A DNA stretch of 64,000 nucleotides from Phycisphaerales bacterium (GTDB lineage Bacteria; Planctomycetota; Phycisphaerae; Sedimentisphaerales; Anaerobacaceae): positions 62,001-126,000 of the forward strand of contig PLLP01000022.1 in NCBI GenBank assembly GCA_003141315.1, given 5' to 3'. Below, piece by piece: positions 105-58,947 of this stretch; position 1 is the first letter of the stretch, and the number at the start of each line of letters is the position of its first letter. The notes under the pieces are model-generated. The model was not told the origin of the DNA. It did no database searches and was given only the letters and a program-made list of their open reading frames with translations. The position numbers were made by a program, and so were the translations under genes.

Positions 105-131
105 ACAAAAACAAAATCCCGATTTTTCGGG
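105..131 (-). terminator. Intrinsic terminator behind the B12 riboswitch
   Basis: On the minus strand a short hairpin CCCGA-AAAA-TCGGG (131-118) is followed at once by ATTTTGTTTTTGT. It lies just 3' of the B12 box, where the expression platform of a transcription-terminating riboswitch is expected. The stem is only 5 bp, so efficiency is uncertain. An antiterminator pairing was not worked out. Confidence 0.6.
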
Positions 132-138
132 CCTGAAT

Positions 139-375
139 ACAGGCAGGTTTTCTGACTTGCGTCCTGCCTTGAGGCGCCTTCCCATCCCGTTTTATCGAGA
201 AAGTGGCATAGCAGGCAAAATGCCCTACTACTAAATACCTCTCGGCCTTGCCCCGTGCCAGCCTCGATTCCTCGAAGCGGCGGGGCGCGGACGCTCACAG
301 CGGCGGGTCCGTCGCGGATTTTAACCGCGTTCCCTTTTTACTAACATCTTCCGGCGCGAGCCTGAAGACCTGTAA
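139..375 (-). promoter_or_regulatory. Cobalamin (B12) riboswitch
   Basis: Read on the minus strand, the region shows the conserved blocks of an adenosylcobalamin riboswitch in order. They are an ACAGGTCTTCAGG-like 5' part (373-361), GGGAACGCGGTTAAAATCCG followed by the ACGGACCCGCCGCTGTGA core (about 335-297), the GGGAAGG block near 190-180, and the 3' B12 box AAGTCAGAAAACCTGCCTGT (157-138). This class binds cobalamin and usually represses B12 synthesis, uptake or B12-independent isozymes. The switch reads towards position 1, so the regulated gene lies outside the window. It is separate from the coiled-coil gene ending at 496, whose mRNA may run into it. Confidence 0.9.
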
Positions 376-495
376 TCAGCTGCTGCTCCGCATAATCCCG
401 ATTCAACAGGGACTATGCACGAGCTATCCATTTTCCAAAGAACACTTACCGTTTTAACAAACACTAAAAAACAATCAAGAAAAATTCCAAAACTT

Positions 496-5919: not shown

Positions 5920-5996
5920 CCCCGTTAGAGAACCACACAGATTTCGGCGAATCGAAGGCGAATACTAAACCTTTGAAGCGTAGTTCTCTAACAGGG
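5920..5996. repeat. 77-bp element with CCCCGTTAGA-type inverted ends
   Basis: CCCCGTTAGAGAAC (5920-5933) is matched by GTTCTCTAACAGGG (5983-5996), 14-base inverted ends with one mismatch. The same outer ten bases form the ends of the larger element at 54707-54864. It lies between convergent genes and has no coding content, so it is probably a miniature non-autonomous element. Confidence 0.6.
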
Positions 5997-23019: not shown

Positions 23020-23562
23020 CTAATATTCGATACCGCGTCTTGCTTCTATACCTTTATCGAAAGGATGCCTGATACTCTTCATTTCCGTCACCAAGTCCGC
23101 CAGCTCCATCAATTCCGTTGTTGCCCCCCTGCCCGTTAAAACAATCTCAACGGAGCTATCCCTGCCCCGAATTATACCTCTAACGTCATCGATGTCCGCA
23201 AGCCCCTTCGACAGGCAGAATACAATCTCATCGAGAACGAACAAGTCGTAAGCCCTGTCTTTCGCCATTTCAGAAATCTTCCGCAAAACAAGTCGTATGG
23301 CATCCCGCATCCGGCTCACCTGCTTTTCATCATTAAAGGATACAGCCATATCCCACGGCTGGTCGAGGCAATCAACTTTAATACTTCCCGGCCCCTTCCT
23401 TAAGATAAACCGCTCGCCGCATTCGACAAATTCCGGTTTCAGGAACTGATAAATAAGAACTCTGTTCCCCTGCCCTGCCGCCCGAAGCGCCAAACCGAAA
23501 GCAGCGGTCGTCTTACCCTTTCCATCGCCCGTATAAATTTCGACAAGTCCTTTTTCAAGCAT
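23020..23562 (-). CDS. cobO: Cob(I)yrinic acid a,c-diamide adenosyltransferase (CobA/BtuR type)
   Basis: The 180-residue enzyme attaches the 5'-deoxyadenosyl group of ATP to Co(I) corrinoids to make adenosylcobalamin. The inverted P-loop TGDGKGKTTAAFG spans about 11-23, FLKPEFVECGE follows, and YDLFVLDEIVFCLSKGL holds the Walker B-like Asp/Glu. C-terminal AELVTEM-type and HPFDKGIEARRGIEY endings are characteristic of the family. No Shine-Dalgarno is obvious before the ATG. It fits with the B12 riboswitch at the left edge and with the methyl-folate fusion protein, which implies corrinoid chemistry. Confidence 0.93.
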   Translation of the reverse strand: MLEKGLVEIYTGDGKGKTTAAFGLALRAAGQGNRVLIYQFLKPEFVECGERFILRKGPGSIKVDCLDQPWDMAVSFNDEKQVSRMRDAIRLVLRKISEMAKDRAYDLFVLDEIVFCLSKGLADIDDVRGIIRGRDSSVEIVLTGRGATTELMELADLVTEMKSIRHPFDKGIEARRGIEY

Positions 23563-23848
23563 ATTCGTATATTAGAATCAATAGCGCCAAAGTCAAAACA
23601 ACTTTTCGCATTCTTTAAAACAGCAAAACCCTTCGCAAACGCTGCACGCACATTACTGCTGCCGTATTCGCAAATTGCCTGCGACTTCCCTTTTTGACAA
23701 TACCTAAAATAAATAATATAGGCAAAATATTATGTAAGGCCAGTTTTGACCCCGATTCGTAATGTCCTATAAAAACTACACTTATGAACCGCCTGGCCGG
23801 CTCTAAGGGAAAAAGAAGCCGCAACTACATATTTTTCCTAAATTTTTG
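23563..23848. other. Intergenic region upstream of cobO and the PEP-CTERM leader
   Basis: This AT-rich spacer separates divergent transcription units. Apart from the promoter at its right end I see no gene, convincing terminator or riboswitch. Confidence 0.5.
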
Positions 23849-23878
23849 TTGACAAACGCCGTTGGCAAATGTTATATT
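23849..23878 (+). promoter_or_regulatory. Sigma-70 promoter for the PEP-CTERM transcript
   Basis: TTGACA (23849-23854) and TATATT (23873-23878) are 18 bases apart. Initiation near 23886 would leave a leader of about 345 bases before the ATG at 24232. Confidence 0.8.
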
Positions 23879-23885
23879 CATTTTC

Positions 23886-24175
23886 AGTTGAAGAAGTAAA
23901 TGTGCAACTTTGGTGTGTAAATCCTCCAAATGTCGTTTGTGGAGGATGGTAGTGAGTAGGGTGAGAAAACTCAATAGCAACTAGTACTGCGACATCACGG
24001 GGTGTGGTGTCAGCGCATTTCACCTTCTCATTTCCAATCTCAAGGTAGTATTGCACAAAGCAGAGAGAGAAAATTTTACAATTGAGTATTATAAGTATTT
24101 GCCGCTGGCAAAAGGTCGTTTGGCGTGTAGCTGAACAAAAAATGGTTGGCGAATACTTGCGTGTAGTTTCTCTGT
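23886..24175 (+). ncRNA. Candidate structured leader RNA with two domains
   Basis: Domain 1 is closed by TGTGCAA (23901-23907) with TTGCACA (24051-24057). It contains a hairpin ATCCTCC/GGAGGAT (23921-23947), a stem TGAGAA/TTCTCA (23962-23967 with 24025-24030) and a hairpin GACATCAC/GTGGTGTC (23991-24011). Domain 2 is AAGTATTTGCC (24093-24103) with GGCGAATACTT (24148-24158), 11 pairs with one wobble. An outer CAGAGA/TCTCTG (24061-24066, 24169-24174) encloses it, and TAAAGTTTTTTC follows, like a terminator tail. I do not recognise a known riboswitch, 6S, tmRNA, SRP or RNase P core. It may be a regulatory leader or a separate small RNA. Confidence 0.5.
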
Positions 24176-24231
24176 AAAGTTTTTTCTAACTAAACTCAAA
24201 CAGAAGAAGAGTTCTTGAAATAAGGAGAAGA

Positions 24232-25113
24232 ATGATGAAGAAACTGTTAATTTTAGTAATCGCATTAGTTATGCCCAGCATGGTGAGCGCTCTTGTCTTT
24301 TCAGACAGCTTTGACCATGTAATGGATGCAGACTGGAACAGAATTGATTATCAAGCATGGTATCTGCAGTCACAGTCTATTGCCACCCCACAAGGCCCAA
24401 GAGTTATTGGTTCATGGGATGGCTATATGTCACAACCCGACGTAGACACAGGCATATCACAGACAATTCTTGCTGATAACTATGTCAATACTTTGGGTAC
24501 AACTCTGGATGGCGCAGGAGTTTCAGCTTGGACTCCTGGCACCACTGGCCCAGTTCTGAATGGCGTTCTCAGAATGGTAAGCAGCAACGGCGGTTGGTCA
24601 GGCTCCAGAAACACTGGTCCGTTCCTCTATAAGAACGTGACCGGCAATTTCACTGCCGAAGTTCAGGTTGTTAGCGCCGATTTCTGGTGGGACAATCTGG
24701 GCGGCCTTATGGCACGCAACGCAAATACAGATAACGGCGAAAACTGGGTTTGTTTGGATTACTTCCCGGACTACAGCGTTGGCAATCACAGCCGTAACAC
24801 AGTCAATGGCGTAAGCTCAGAAGTAGGCATTAGCGGGTATCCTGCCAATACGTATCTGCAGCTTTCACGTGTTGGTAGCACATTCTACCTCAAGACAAGC
24901 GCTGATGGCCTTACATGGACATCTCTGACCGGTCTCGAGGCTGGTATTACGAGAGCCGACATTGGCGACGTCCAGGTTGGTATCTTCCAGTCAAACTTCA
25001 ATGCAGACTGGACAGGCACTATGGAATTTGATAACTTCTCAATTACACCAGAACCAGCAACAATTTGTCTGCTTGGCCTTGGTGCATTAGCCCTCATCCG
25101 CAAGAAAAGCTAA
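24232..25113 (+). CDS. PEP-CTERM sorted exported protein
   Basis: The 293-residue protein has a signal peptide (MMKKLLILVIALVMPSMVSA). A beta-sandwich domain spans about 22-265 and resembles DUF1349/concanavalin-like folds (FLYKNVTGNFTAEVQVVS, WWDNLGGLMARN, FYLKTSADGLTWTSL). The C-terminal sorting signal PEPATICLLGLGAL is followed by a basic IRKKS tail. PEP-CTERM proteins are processed by exosortase and end at the cell surface or in the exopolysaccharide matrix. AATAAGGAGAAGA precedes the ATG. It is the only gene of this unit, between the structured leader and a terminator. No exosortase gene is in the window. Confidence 0.9.
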   Translation: MMKKLLILVIALVMPSMVSALVFSDSFDHVMDADWNRIDYQAWYLQSQSIATPQGPRVIGSWDGYMSQPDVDTGISQTILADNYVNTLGTTLDGAGVSAWTPGTTGPVLNGVLRMVSSNGGWSGSRNTGPFLYKNVTGNFTAEVQVVSADFWWDNLGGLMARNANTDNGENWVCLDYFPDYSVGNHSRNTVNGVSSEVGISGYPANTYLQLSRVGSTFYLKTSADGLTWTSLTGLEAGITRADIGDVQVGIFQSNFNADWTGTMEFDNFSITPEPATICLLGLGALALIRKKS

Positions 25114-25141: not shown

Positions 25142-25176
25142 GCGGGGCCTGCTAATTTGCAGGCCTCGCTTGTTTT
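25142..25176 (+). terminator. Terminator of the PEP-CTERM gene
   Basis: GCGGGGCCTGC (25142-25152) and GCAGGCCTCGC (25159-25169) form a stem with a TAATTT loop, and TTGTTTT follows. Confidence 0.9.
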
Positions 25177-25254: not shown

Positions 25255-26340
25255 CTACTTGCCATTCCGGATTTTCTGGATGATTGCATCCGCCATCTGA
25301 CTTGTGCCTACAGCGGCAGGGTCGCTGCGGTTTTCTTTGAGGTCGTAAGTAACGCTTTTGCCTTCGGCTATAACAGTCGCCACAGCCGCTTCCAGCCTGT
25401 CTGCTTCTTTTGCCTTACCGAGGTATCTCAGCATCAGCACGCCGCTTAAAATAAGGGCGGTCGGGTTGACCTTATTTTGGCCTTTATATTTTGGTGCGCT
25501 GCCGTGCGTCGCCTCGAATATCGCCCCCTTGTCACCGATATTTGCCCCCGGCGCAACGCCAAGCCCGCCTACAAGGCCGGCACAAAGGTCGCTGAGAATA
25601 TCGCCGTAAAGGTTCGGCAGCACCAACACATCGTAAAGTTCCGGCTTCTGCACTAACTGCATACACATATTGTCAACGATGCGGTCCTCGAATTCGACAT
25701 CGGAATACTTCGCCGCGACCTGCCTGCTCACCTCCAGCCACAAGCCATCCGTGTACTTCATAATATTGGCCTTGTGAACGCTCGTCACCTTTTTACGCTT
25801 ATTTTTGCGTGCGTATTCGAATGCGAACTTCACGATGCGCTCAGTGGCAGCTGCTGAAATCGGTTTTATTGATATACCCGAATCCGGACGGATTTTTTTC
25901 GTGCTGTGGGCATTCAGCCAGCTGATAAGCTCGCCTGTTTCGTCTTTTCCCTTCTGAAATTCTATGCCCGCATACAGGTCTTCGCTGTTTTCGCGGACGA
26001 GCACAATATCGATATCGGAATATCTGCTGCGGACGCCGGCATAGCTCTTGCACGGCCTCAGGCACGCATACAAATCGAACAGCTGACGCAAGTGAACGTT
26101 GACGCTCCTGAAACCTGTCCCGACAGGGGTTGTTATGGGGGCCTTCAGCGCAACGCTGTTTTTCTTTATCGAGTCTATCGTGCGCTGAGGCAAAGGACTG
26201 CCTTCCTTTTCCAGACAATCAATACCGGCCTCGACTATATCCCAGTTTATACCTGCTCCGGTTGCGTCGATACATCGCTTAGCCGCTTCCGCCAGTTCCG
26301 GCCCGGTCCCGTCGCCGTTTATCAATGTCACGTTTATCAT
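25255..26340 (-). CDS. NAD-type isocitrate/isopropylmalate dehydrogenase family enzyme
   Basis: The 361-residue protein belongs to the decarboxylating beta-hydroxyacid dehydrogenases. GDGTGPEL (9-16), [20 protein letters not shown] (79-98, substrate Ser/Asn/Arg) and [15 protein letters not shown] point to NAD-dependent isocitrate dehydrogenase rather than LeuB. Catalytic Lys occurs in [15 protein letters not shown], and Asp in [22 protein letters not shown]. It would convert isocitrate to 2-oxoglutarate for glutamate supply in a partial citrate cycle. Homoisocitrate dehydrogenase is an alternative. AGGAAAGCAGAAA precedes the ATG. Confidence 0.88.
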
Positions 26341-54970: not shown

Positions 54971-56461
54971 ATGGCAAAACCCGAAAAAAATAATACAAAT
55001 GCGGTTCAGTCCGCCCAAAAGGGGATTAAGCCGGACTTTAATCGCGCTATCCCCGAATCGCTCGAGGCCGAGGCCGCCGTTTTAGGCTCTATGATACTCG
55101 ACCCCCAGTGCATCGGCGAGGTGGTTGAGAAGATAAAGGCAGACGCCTTTTACAGACCTGAACACCAGATTATGTTCGAGGCCATTGTCTCTCTTTACGA
55201 AAAAAACAAGGGCGGCACCATCGATGCGGTACTCCTGCGGGACGAACTTAAAAAGAAGAAACAACTTGAAGAAATCGGCGGCGTGGAATATATCGGCAGA
55301 GTGATAGATTCTGTTCCCTCTGCGGCAAACGTAGGCTACTACACTGATATTGTAAAAGATAAAATGCTGCTGAGGCAGCTTATCACATCCGCGGGCGAAA
55401 TACTCAACGACGCCTTCGAGACGGGCAGCGAAACCGCTGAAATCCTCGACCTGGCCGAGCAAAAAATCTTCGCAATCAGCGACCAGAAGATAACTAATTC
55501 CGCAGCGGTGCTGAAAGACCTCGTCGTAAAGGCCTATGAACTGATAGAGAAACGCGAAGGCAAACACATCACGGGCGTGGCAACCGGGTTCTATGAGCTC
55601 GATGACCTTACCTGCGGGCTCCAGCCGGGAGAAGTGATAATCATCGCCGGCAGACCCAGTATGGGCAAAACAAGCTTCGCACTTAACATCGCAGAACATA
55701 TCGGCGTCGATAACAAAACGCCCGTCGGAATATTTTCAATCGAAATGGGCAGGCAGCAGCTCGCAGAAAGAATCCTGTGCAGCAGAAGTGGAATTGAATC
55801 GCAGCTCGTCAGAAAGGGAATGCTGAACAAGGAACACCATATAAGACTGCAGGAGGCGTGCAGCCCCCTGTATGAATCGCCCATTTTCATCGATGATACA
55901 TCGAGCCTCACGCCACTCGAATTGCGCGCAAAGGCAAGAAGATTGAAAAGCCAGCACAAAATTCAGTGCATTATAGTCGATTACCTGCAATTGATGCACG
56001 TCGGAACAGGCAGAATCGAATCCCGGCAGCAGGAGATAACCACCATATCACGACACCTCAAAGGTCTGGCGAGGGAGCTGAACGTTCCTGTTATTGTCGT
56101 AAGCCAGCTCAACAGGGCATCAGAAGAAAGAGAAGGACACCGCCCGAGAATGAGCGACCTGCGTGAGAGCGGCAGCATCGAGCAGGACGCCGACGTAATT
56201 ATGCTGCTTCACAGAGAGGATTATTATCACCGCAGTGAATCCGATTACGAATCCGACAACAGCGCCGAACTGATAATCGCCAAGCAGCGTAACGGCCCGA
56301 CGGGAACTATCAAGCTGCGATTCGATGAGAAAATTACGCGTTTTAAAAACGCATCGTCAAATAATATTGAAGAGCCGTATGGCCGGTATGAGCCCGACAC
56401 TCGCAGCGGTGCAACCGCATCGCAGCGGGCAAGCGGGTCGGAGGATATTCCTCCGTTTTAG
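54971..56461 (+). CDS. dnaB: Replicative DNA helicase DnaB
   Basis: The 496-residue hexameric 5'-3' helicase opens the replication fork. The N-terminal domain (ESLEAEAAVLGSMILDPQCI) lies at about 28-47. Walker A is GRPSMGKTS (227-235), Walker B is IIVDYLQLMH, motif H4 is MSDLRESGSIEQDADVIMLL, and FDEKITRF sits late. An Ala/Lys-rich N-terminal extension precedes it, and a ~30-residue polar tail ends it. It leads the envelope cluster, 11 bases before bamA, an unusual partner for dnaB. Confidence 0.96.
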   Translation: MAKPEKNNTNAVQSAQKGIKPDFNRAIPESLEAEAAVLGSMILDPQCIGEVVEKIKADAFYRPEHQIMFEAIVSLYEKNKGGTIDAVLLRDELKKKKQLEEIGGVEYIGRVIDSVPSAANVGYYTDIVKDKMLLRQLITSAGEILNDAFETGSETAEILDLAEQKIFAISDQKITNSAAVLKDLVVKAYELIEKREGKHITGVATGFYELDDLTCGLQPGEVIIIAGRPSMGKTSFALNIAEHIGVDNKTPVGIFSIEMGRQQLAERILCSRSGIESQLVRKGMLNKEHHIRLQEACSPLYESPIFIDDTSSLTPLELRAKARRLKSQHKIQCIIVDYLQLMHVGTGRIESRQQEITTISRHLKGLARELNVPVIVVSQLNRASEEREGHRPRMSDLRESGSIEQDADVIMLLHREDYYHRSESDYESDNSAELIIAKQRNGPTGTIKLRFDEKITRFKNASSNNIEEPYGRYEPDTRSGATASQRASGSEDIPPF

Positions 56462-56472
56462 GAGAAATCCCG

Positions 56473-58947
56473 ATGTACAGGACGACAAACGGGATGCCCA
56501 AACGCGTTGTTCAGCGACAGGGCACCCCATACATCCGCCAACAAACCGAAGGCGGACAGTGGTTTCAGTGCAGCAAAAGCCTCGTGATAATTTTTTCAGC
56601 GATTATTCTGTTTTTTCTTTCCCCCGCTCCCGCTGCCGATGACGCCGCAGGAACGCCGCAGTATTCGGACGAACAGTTAAGTAAAATGCAGATAGCCGGC
56701 ATCAGTATCGCCGGCAACGTGAACGTCGAGCGGGATACTATCCTCTCGAAGGTGCGCAGTAAAACCGGATACCTGTTTAATCCTAAAACGGCTGCCGAGG
56801 ACGTCAAAAGAATCGCAGCTATACCGGGCGTCCAGAGAGGCTGGTATAACGCTAATGTCGTAAACGGCAAAGTTGAGCTTACTTTCGTCATAATAGAGCA
56901 AAACGTCGTGCGGGAAATCGAGTTCACCGGCAACAAGAGCTACAAAAACGGCACCCTGAAGAAAAAACTCGATTTCAAAAAGGGTGATTACCTCGACCCG
57001 ACACTCGCAGCGACAGGAGTAGAAAAACTGCTCGAACATTACAAAGAAAAAGGATATCCCTTTGCGACAGTTACGCTCGATTATGAAAAGCTCGCCACCG
57101 GAAAAGTTTGCTATACGATTGACGAGGGCAAACGGGCTAAAATCACCTCGATAACCTACAGCGGAAACAAACAGATAAAAACAGGCAGCCTGAAAAAAAT
57201 TATCAAGCTTCACAAAACCAAGTTCATTCTCTGGTCTGTTTATTATAATGAAGAGGACGTCCAGAAAGAAATCGCCAACCTGCTGAACACCTATTACAAA
57301 AAAGGCTTCCTGAATATTGCCATTGAATGCGAGAAAAATTTCAATGCCGACAAAAGCCGCGTAAGCCTCGTCTTTAAAATCAGTGAAGGCCGAATTTACA
57401 GCGTAAGGAATATCGTCTTTGCCGGCAACAAGGAATTCGGCACGGACAGGTTATCGAAGGCCGTCGATATAAAGGCAGGTGAGGTCTATAACAAACTTAA
57501 AGGCGACGCCGATACGAAAAATCTTACAAAAGAATATCTCGAAAATGGTTTTATCGACGCAATCATCGAACAGAACCTGAAATTCGTGGATACGGATAAG
57601 GTCGATGTCGAATACGCAATACAGGAAGGGGAGCGTTTTCGCATCGGCCAGATAGAGATAGCCGGCAACAAGCAGACGCAGGACAGGGTAATCCGGCGAA
57701 TTCTCGACGAGTACGATTTCAGGCCGGGCAATTTCTATAACGCCGATGAGGCCAAAGGCGACGGCAACGGCTCCCTCGAAAAACTTATAAAGGGGACCAC
57801 CTATATGGAAGCCGCCACAATAAGGCCCGCCGGCGAAAAACCAGGCCAGAAAGATGCTATGGTTAACGTCGTCGAAGGAAAAACAGGCCAGATTATGGCG
57901 GGCGCCGGGATATCCGCTGATAACGGTGTCGCTGGAAATATCGTTTTCGACGAGCGAAATTTCAACATAAACGGAAAACCTGAAAACCTGTGGGATGCGC
58001 TTACAGGCCGGGCATACAAGGGCGCAGGCCAGAACCTGAGAATACAACTCCAGCCCGGCACACTCGTCAGCCAATACTCGGTAAGTTTCACCGAACCTTA
58101 CCTCAATGATAAGCCGGTCTCGATGACCCTTACCGGGTCAAGCTGGACAAGGTTCTGGGAAAGCTATGACGAGGGAAGGCTGAGGGCCTTTGCTGAATTC
58201 GAAAAGAGATACAAAAGCCGCTGGAGCAGCAGCATCGCATTCAGAATCGAAAGTGTCGATATATCACGCCTCGATGACGATGCCCCAAAGGAGGTAAGGG
58301 ATGTGGAAGGAAAAAATCTCCTGGCGGGCGTCAGGCTGGGCATCAGCAAAAACCTTACAGACGACCGGCTTAACCCCAGCAATGGCTATACGTTCGATGC
58401 CGGCTACGAACAGGTTGCAGGCAGCAAAACATTCGGAAAACTTAACGTTTTTTATCAGCGCTTTTTTACGCTGTCGACAGACCTCGCAGAACGCAAGACG
58501 GTATTTTCGACAAAAATTTATGGAGCGACAACCGTCGGCAAAGCCCCCGTCTTCGAAAAATATTATGCAGGCGGCTCCGGAGTGTTTTACGGCATAAGAG
58601 GTTTCGAGTACAGAGGCGTGAGCCGGCGAGGCACGCCCAGCAACCCTGACGGCTCAATCATCGCAGGCGCAGAGAAAAAAGACCCCATCGGCAGCGACTG
58701 GCTTGTGCTCGCCAACGCCGAAGTTGCCGTTCCAATTATCAGTAATAACATCTCCTGGCTCTGTTTCGCAGACTCAGGCATGATTGATACCGGCGGCCCA
58801 AGAGCCTCCATCGGCACAGGTATACAAATACTTATCCCCCAGTGGTTCGGGCCGGTGCCGATGAGATTCGAACTATCAGCTCCGCTAAAAAAAGAAAGAG
58901 AAGACAGGACGCAGACCTTCAGCTTCTCGATGGGCTCGCTCTTTTAA
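56473..58947 (+). CDS. bamA: Outer-membrane protein assembly factor BamA
   Basis: The 824-residue protein inserts beta barrels into the outer membrane. A signal peptide (LVIIFSAIILFFLSPAPAAD) is preceded by an unusual ~38-residue basic N-terminal segment. Residues about 75-450 contain five POTRA domains (repeats of I-x-x-G-N such as ISIAGNVNVE, IEFTGNKSYKNG, ITYSGNKQI, IVFAGNKEF, IEIAGNKQT). The barrel follows, with the GIRGFEYRG (VRGF) motif near 700 and a terminal FSFSMGSLF. TTAGGAGAAATCCCG precedes the ATG. It is followed by skp, lpxD, lpxC-fabZ and lpxA. Confidence 0.95.
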   Translation: MYRTTNGMPKRVVQRQGTPYIRQQTEGGQWFQCSKSLVIIFSAIILFFLSPAPAADDAAGTPQYSDEQLSKMQIAGISIAGNVNVERDTILSKVRSKTGYLFNPKTAAEDVKRIAAIPGVQRGWYNANVVNGKVELTFVIIEQNVVREIEFTGNKSYKNGTLKKKLDFKKGDYLDPTLAATGVEKLLEHYKEKGYPFATVTLDYEKLATGKVCYTIDEGKRAKITSITYSGNKQIKTGSLKKIIKLHKTKFILWSVYYNEEDVQKEIANLLNTYYKKGFLNIAIECEKNFNADKSRVSLVFKISEGRIYSVRNIVFAGNKEFGTDRLSKAVDIKAGEVYNKLKGDADTKNLTKEYLENGFIDAIIEQNLKFVDTDKVDVEYAIQEGERFRIGQIEIAGNKQTQDRVIRRILDEYDFRPGNFYNADEAKGDGNGSLEKLIKGTTYMEAATIRPAGEKPGQKDAMVNVVEGKTGQIMAGAGISADNGVAGNIVFDERNFNINGKPENLWDALTGRAYKGAGQNLRIQLQPGTLVSQYSVSFTEPYLNDKPVSMTLTGSSWTRFWESYDEGRLRAFAEFEKRYKSRWSSSIAFRIESVDISRLDDDAPKEVRDVEGKNLLAGVRLGISKNLTDDRLNPSNGYTFDAGYEQVAGSKTFGKLNVFYQRFFTLSTDLAERKTVFSTKIYGATTVGKAPVFEKYYAGGSGVFYGIRGFEYRGVSRRGTPSNPDGSIIAGAEKKDPIGSDWLVLANAEVAVPIISNNISWLCFADSGMIDTGGPRASIGTGIQILIPQWFGPVPMRFELSAPLKKEREDRTQTFSFSMGSLF

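Follow-up and report, generated by a model that had tools for sequence, protein, structure and literature searches.

A long leader predicted to fold stably ahead of a PEP-CTERM gene of a Phycisphaerales bacterium looks like a lineage-specific 5' UTR

The region ahead of a PEP-CTERM protein gene in the window (the whole 64,000-nt stretch of DNA analysed here, part of the 2.35 Mb genome G000) is predicted to form a leader whose structure is well predicted yet unconserved. As no relative was found to share it, it seems to be an mRNA leader restricted to this lineage, and not a new kind of regulatory RNA. Computation gives a promoter, no terminator-like site before the gene, two stable domains and an exposed Shine-Dalgarno sequence. 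We tentatively favour a 5' UTR that is long, structured and restricted to this lineage, on a one-gene mRNA for a PEP-CTERM surface protein; its effect, if any, would be on mRNA lifetime. The earlier note, made from the same DNA, had suggested that the RNA may control a surface protein or be a free small RNA. This suggestion finds no support: the domain models match only the bacterium's own genome among 161, the similarity to one other leader is marginal, and no terminator-like site was found in the leader. Readings as a riboswitch, attenuator or free small RNA are unsupported.

The transcription unit and the predicted fold of its leader

The gene (24232..25113, + strand) codes for a protein of 293 aa, identified by a Pfam match. 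Its PEP-CTERM sorting motif reaches 22.8 bits against a cut-off of 20.7. The protein also has a DUF1349-like stretch that falls just under the Pfam cut-off. According to the gene list, the neighbours are a divergent cobA-like gene (23020-23562, - strand) and a convergent isocitrate/isopropylmalate dehydrogenase gene (25255-26340, - strand). Since both are oriented oppositely to it, the PEP-CTERM gene forms a single-gene unit. A terminator-like hairpin found by consensus scan (11 pairs, nine of them G-C, then a T-rich tail) follows it at 25142..25169 on the + strand.

The promoter claimed earlier at 23849..23878 (+ strand) was recovered by consensus scan as a sigma-70 type site, TTGACA-18-TATATT, agreeing with the consensus at 11 of 12 positions. 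Its position would place the transcription start at about 23885-23886. The non-coding leader would then run from about 23886 to the ATG at 24232, i.e., about 346 nt, close to the 345 bases proposed before. The same type of scan reports no second promoter-like site for the gene on the + strand between 23879 and 24232, and nothing resembling a terminator turns up within the leader in a simple consensus scan. No sigma-54 -24/-12 site is present on the + strand of 23563-24231 at up to two mismatches, and 23563-24231 contains no repeats. A Shine-Dalgarno sequence, AAGGAG, was read from the sequence at 24222..24227 (+ strand).

Bases 23886-24175 fold at -86.8 kcal/mol against a mean of -71 for 200 dinucleotide shuffles, none of which is as stable (z -3.51). 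The leader up to the start codon behaves in the same way (z -3.48, 0/200). The - strand of bases 23886-24175 has z -1.96, with five of the 200 shuffles as stable, the fold thus being stronger on the + strand.

The predicted structure consists of two nested domains, as the earlier note had described. Domain 1 (23901..24057, + strand) is a three-way junction in the predicted fold and its pair probabilities. It is closed by a helix of 13 pairs with a 5-nt bulge (23901-23913/24040-24057). The closing pair, previously given as TGTGCAA/TTGCACA, appears as TGTGCA/TGCACA, 23901-23906 pairing with 24052-24057 at probabilities of 0.81-1.0. The two inner hairpins correspond to hairpin 1, ATCCTCCA/TGGAGGAT (23921..23947, + strand; eight core pairs, probabilities 0.68-1.0), and to the predicted 17-pair helix P1 (23948..24035, + strand), which carries the predicted tip hairpin P2 (23991-24011, + strand). 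Domain 2 (24066..24187, + strand) is predicted to be a long hairpin with two small tip hairpins. Its inner stem (24093-24103/24148-24158), counted before as 11 bp, has 10 pairs in the MFE structure, the 11th being read from the sequence. The U-rich tail thought to follow this stem is not a tail in the model, where the U-run is part of the paired 3' strand of the 15-bp outer helix (24066-24080/24173-24187). Folded alone, domain 1 has z -3.8 and domain 2 z -4.5 (0/200 shuffles each); the boundaries of both were picked after the fold was known. The Shine-Dalgarno sequence is open in the predicted fold, with unpaired probabilities of 0.82-0.99 at the positions printed.

Within the window this fold energy is not exceptional. 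We compared the leader with 200 other pieces of 290 nt, sampled at 640-base steps on both strands and including coding sequence, with 10 shuffles each. Six of them reach z <= -3.4 and ten z <= -3; in this coarser test the leader itself has z -3.15 and ranks 7th of 202. One of the six strongest pieces lies at the window's cobalamin riboswitch, and most of the six correspond to no known RNA. The riboswitch is located at 125-388 (- strand; Rfam, 71 bits versus a gathering score of 31.5). An inverted repeat at 5920-5996, CCCCGTTAGAGAAC/GTTCTCTAACAGGG (14 bases, one G-T), lies just behind what, by eye, resembles a cold-shock-type gene; the two together have the lowest fold z among the sampled pieces, and this holds for both strands. 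No more copies of this repeat pair were found in the window with up to one mismatch in the 10-base core. A strong fold is also seen at a gene start at 56421-56710 (- strand; coarse z -4.07).

The genome has 15 PEP-CTERM matches, for two of which (L133 and L145) the start codon is probably misplaced. In the 300 nt upstream, the window's gene has the lowest z of the 15 (-3.36), the others ranging from +1.04 to -2.95. Three of the 15 have a match to a relaxed promoter pattern in the 450 nt upstream. As so low a value is found only at the window's gene, the leader is not a common device of the PEP-CTERM class.

Conservation and resemblance to other RNAs

No Rfam 15 family matches the leader at the curated gathering score, in agreement with the earlier note, which could match it to no known riboswitch or housekeeping RNA; in the whole window only the cobalamin riboswitch is found. 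With the limit raised to E 10, the region 23600-24300 gives only two sub-threshold matches, both implausible. Single-sequence covariance models of domain 1 and domain 2 match one of 161 genomes of the order, the window's own; this set includes none from the organism's genus, and with over 40 genomes searched the search filters lose some weak covariance-model matches. A riboswitch should keep a conserved aptamer core across relatives; here the models match the bacterium's own genome only among the 161. The leader DNA has no match beyond chance lengths in its own genome or in 60 relatives, and none in E. coli genomes, plasmids and phages.

The protein has full-length orthologues in G009 (48% identity) and in G007, where the gene is cut by a contig end; other protein matches are domains of larger proteins or the sorting motif alone. 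A search of genome contigs for protein relatives gave two distant loci. Among 397 genomes of the class, only the bacterium's own passes E 1e-45 in the protein search. The earlier note had agreed to give up its proposal if the fold energy were no better than that of shuffled sequence, or if relatives lacked conservation or covariation. The first was not observed (z -3.5, 0/200). The second largely was, given domain models that match the own genome only of 161 and a marginal similarity in G009.

The G009 orthologue, the best match, is preceded by a promoter read by eye as TTGACA-18-TATAAA; the consensus scan requires the final T and reports none. Its leader spans 226 nt to the Shine-Dalgarno region and folds no better than shuffles (z -0.79; 46/200 as stable). 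AACTAG...AGCGCATTT (also given as AACTAG...GCGCATTT) is common to the two leaders. This two-block match is reached in 8.7% of 3000 shuffles, and generic local alignment scores between the leaders are equalled by 21 and 13 of 500. A helix around AACTAG and AGCGCATTT is possible in G009 and differs from the window's helix by several paired changes. Helix P1 arises in 2.8% of 5000 shuffled flanks and its contiguous part alone in 14.6%. When the whole G009 leader is folded without constraints, the probability of P1 is zero, and this fold is more stable than the constrained one by 2.1 kcal/mol. A re-paired closing stem and a hairpin with a U-rich tail can be recognised by eye.

The single-sequence domain models give no significant match in the G009 leader (best 7.3 bits, E 1.2, domain 2). 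Model R1, built from both leaders, finds both of them and also, weakly, a place where a coding gene ends. The two leaders may be homologous; the independent tests of this are weak. Domain 1 might even form the core of a regulatory RNA that is rare, evolves fast and is associated with PEP-CTERM genes in this family, the G009 leader being a second member. The case for it would be AACUAG and AGCGCAUUU held in a helix, pairing kept through several changes on both sides, and the re-paired closing stem; we consider such a class improbable.

A search of the 161 genomes for AACTAG...GCGCATTT matched 13 places in 11 genomes, and the reversed control matched more often. Two of the 13 places are 16S rRNA 3' trailers (G033 and G059), which resemble the leader in having AACTAG, a hairpin and GTCAGCGCATTT, having been selected by the search pattern itself. 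A related trailer layout occurs in 13 of 60 relatives. A weight matrix built from 12 trailers, including the two chosen for matching the window, gives the window site a score of 25.0, the next best site in the window reaching 16.1. In a shuffle test of 13 trailers, P is 0.0 and 0.003 for the two chosen ones but 0.92 for the trailer of the own genome; two near-identical trailers stand out by another stretch (P 0.01-0.03). The 16S trailer element comprises AACUAGAAC, a hairpin and GUCAGGCAUUUUCGCUG, with partners in the 16S end and leader. The leader does not qualify as one: the AACTAGAA part of the trailers can pair with the 16S 3' end, as read from the sequence, whereas the window leader lacks such a partner. 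The trailer letters would be explained by their pairing to the 16S end and to the leader of the rRNA, likewise read from the sequence. The link between the leader and rRNA was dropped, as the excess over shuffles lies mainly in the pattern-selected trailers and the own-genome trailer shows none.

Two observations on the rRNA genes can be recorded separately. The 16S trailer ACTAGAAC-hairpin-GTCAGGCATTTTCGC is conserved and has two potential pairing partners, UUCUAG at the 16S 3' end and the 16S 5' leader. The 16S rRNA genes, at L104 (G000:C7) and L101-L117, have a terminator hairpin directly after them and are unlinked from 23S.

Alternative readings of the leader

The leader may have no selected function at all, being a long non-coding upstream region that folds well by chance, and we regard this as a serious, if doubtful, alternative. 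It agrees with the lack of conservation, with the six of 200 sampled pieces that are equally extreme while mostly representing no known RNA, and with the single case among 15 PEP-CTERM genes of so stable an upstream 300 nt, hence no shared device. Chance would account less readily for two compact nested domains, neither of them matched in stability by any of 200 shuffles, or for a fold that is stronger on the transcribed strand and bounded by promoter and gene.

The layout, a three-way junction and then a second hairpin bearing a U-run, would suit a riboswitch or attenuator with domain 1 as the sensor and domain 2 as the output, and the letters shared with G009, together with the closing stem, hairpin and U-rich tail seen there by eye, point the same way. 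We nevertheless find this reading unlikely. Apart from the two implausible sub-threshold hits, Rfam offers nothing up to E 10, the single-sequence models lack a significant match in the G009 leader, and the shared blocks and helix P1 come up in shuffles at the rates given above. An intrinsic terminator between promoter and gene, which defines a transcription attenuator, was not seen in the simple consensus scan, and the bases of the U-run are paired in the model. Neither of the outputs usual for a switch can be made out, given an open ribosome-binding site and the lack of a terminator-like site. A free small RNA from 23886 to about 24195, separate from the mRNA, appears quite improbable as well: it would have its own promoter and a compact fold ending near the U-run, but domain 2 does not end in a terminator-like site, and there is no other reported promoter-like site on the + strand (23879-24232) from which the gene could be transcribed. 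Least probable is a leader-peptide device based on a 10-codon frame from GTG at 23952 to TAG at 23982-23984. The frame has a well spaced GGAGG (23941-23945) six bases upstream of the GTG, and a short frame in G009 likewise ends on AAC-TAG. However, at least one such frame occurs in 35.5% of 1000 shuffled leaders, and both the GGAGG (in hairpin 1) and the start are fully paired in the model.

What remains is either a passive leader that possibly prolongs mRNA life, our tentative choice, or the neutral structure, which we rate as possible.

Comparison with known leaders and significance

If the leader is a structured 5' UTR, leader and gene would form one transcript and the predicted fold would have to exist in the cell. 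It could then act as a barrier to ribonuclease entry upstream of the open ribosome-binding site, affecting mRNA lifetime without any switch. The leader resembles the stabilising 5' UTR of the E. coli ompA type in being stem-rich, in exposing its ribosome-binding site and in preceding an envelope-protein gene; it differs in being much longer and in that its first stem begins some 15 nt in from the inferred 5' end, and a relation in sequence would not be expected. The distance of the first stem argues against our preferred explanation, as the classic ompA stabiliser depends on a stem near the 5' end. So do the absence of homologues of either domain from the 161 genomes, the G009 leader that folds no better than shuffles, and the six sampled pieces with equally extreme energies. 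An mRNA-stabilising 5' UTR should have a stable structure ahead of a ribosome-binding site that is accessible, and the prediction shows both. Stem-loops of 5' UTRs are reported to protect mRNAs in several bacteria (PMC7509114).

PEP-CTERM genes were described by Haft and co-workers (2006, PMC1569441) as standing mostly alone in their operons, with over 200 nt of non-coding DNA ahead of them, and the window's unit shares both features. In that study, proteobacterial PEP-CTERM regions have a sigma-54 site, whereas the window's unit lacks one and has a promoter of the sigma-70 type. With no -24/-12 promoter, the gene does not fit the proteobacterial PEP-CTERM regulon (sigma-54, PrsK/PrsR). Outside Proteobacteria, the long PEP-CTERM upstream regions are largely unexplained (PMC1569441). 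Our literature search found no work on PEP-CTERM with leader and riboswitch.

What has been described is one stable leader in one genome, and fold energy without conservation does not identify an RNA class. If the leader does work, it would show that a PEP-CTERM surface protein can be controlled post-transcriptionally outside the sigma-54 regulon of proteobacteria.
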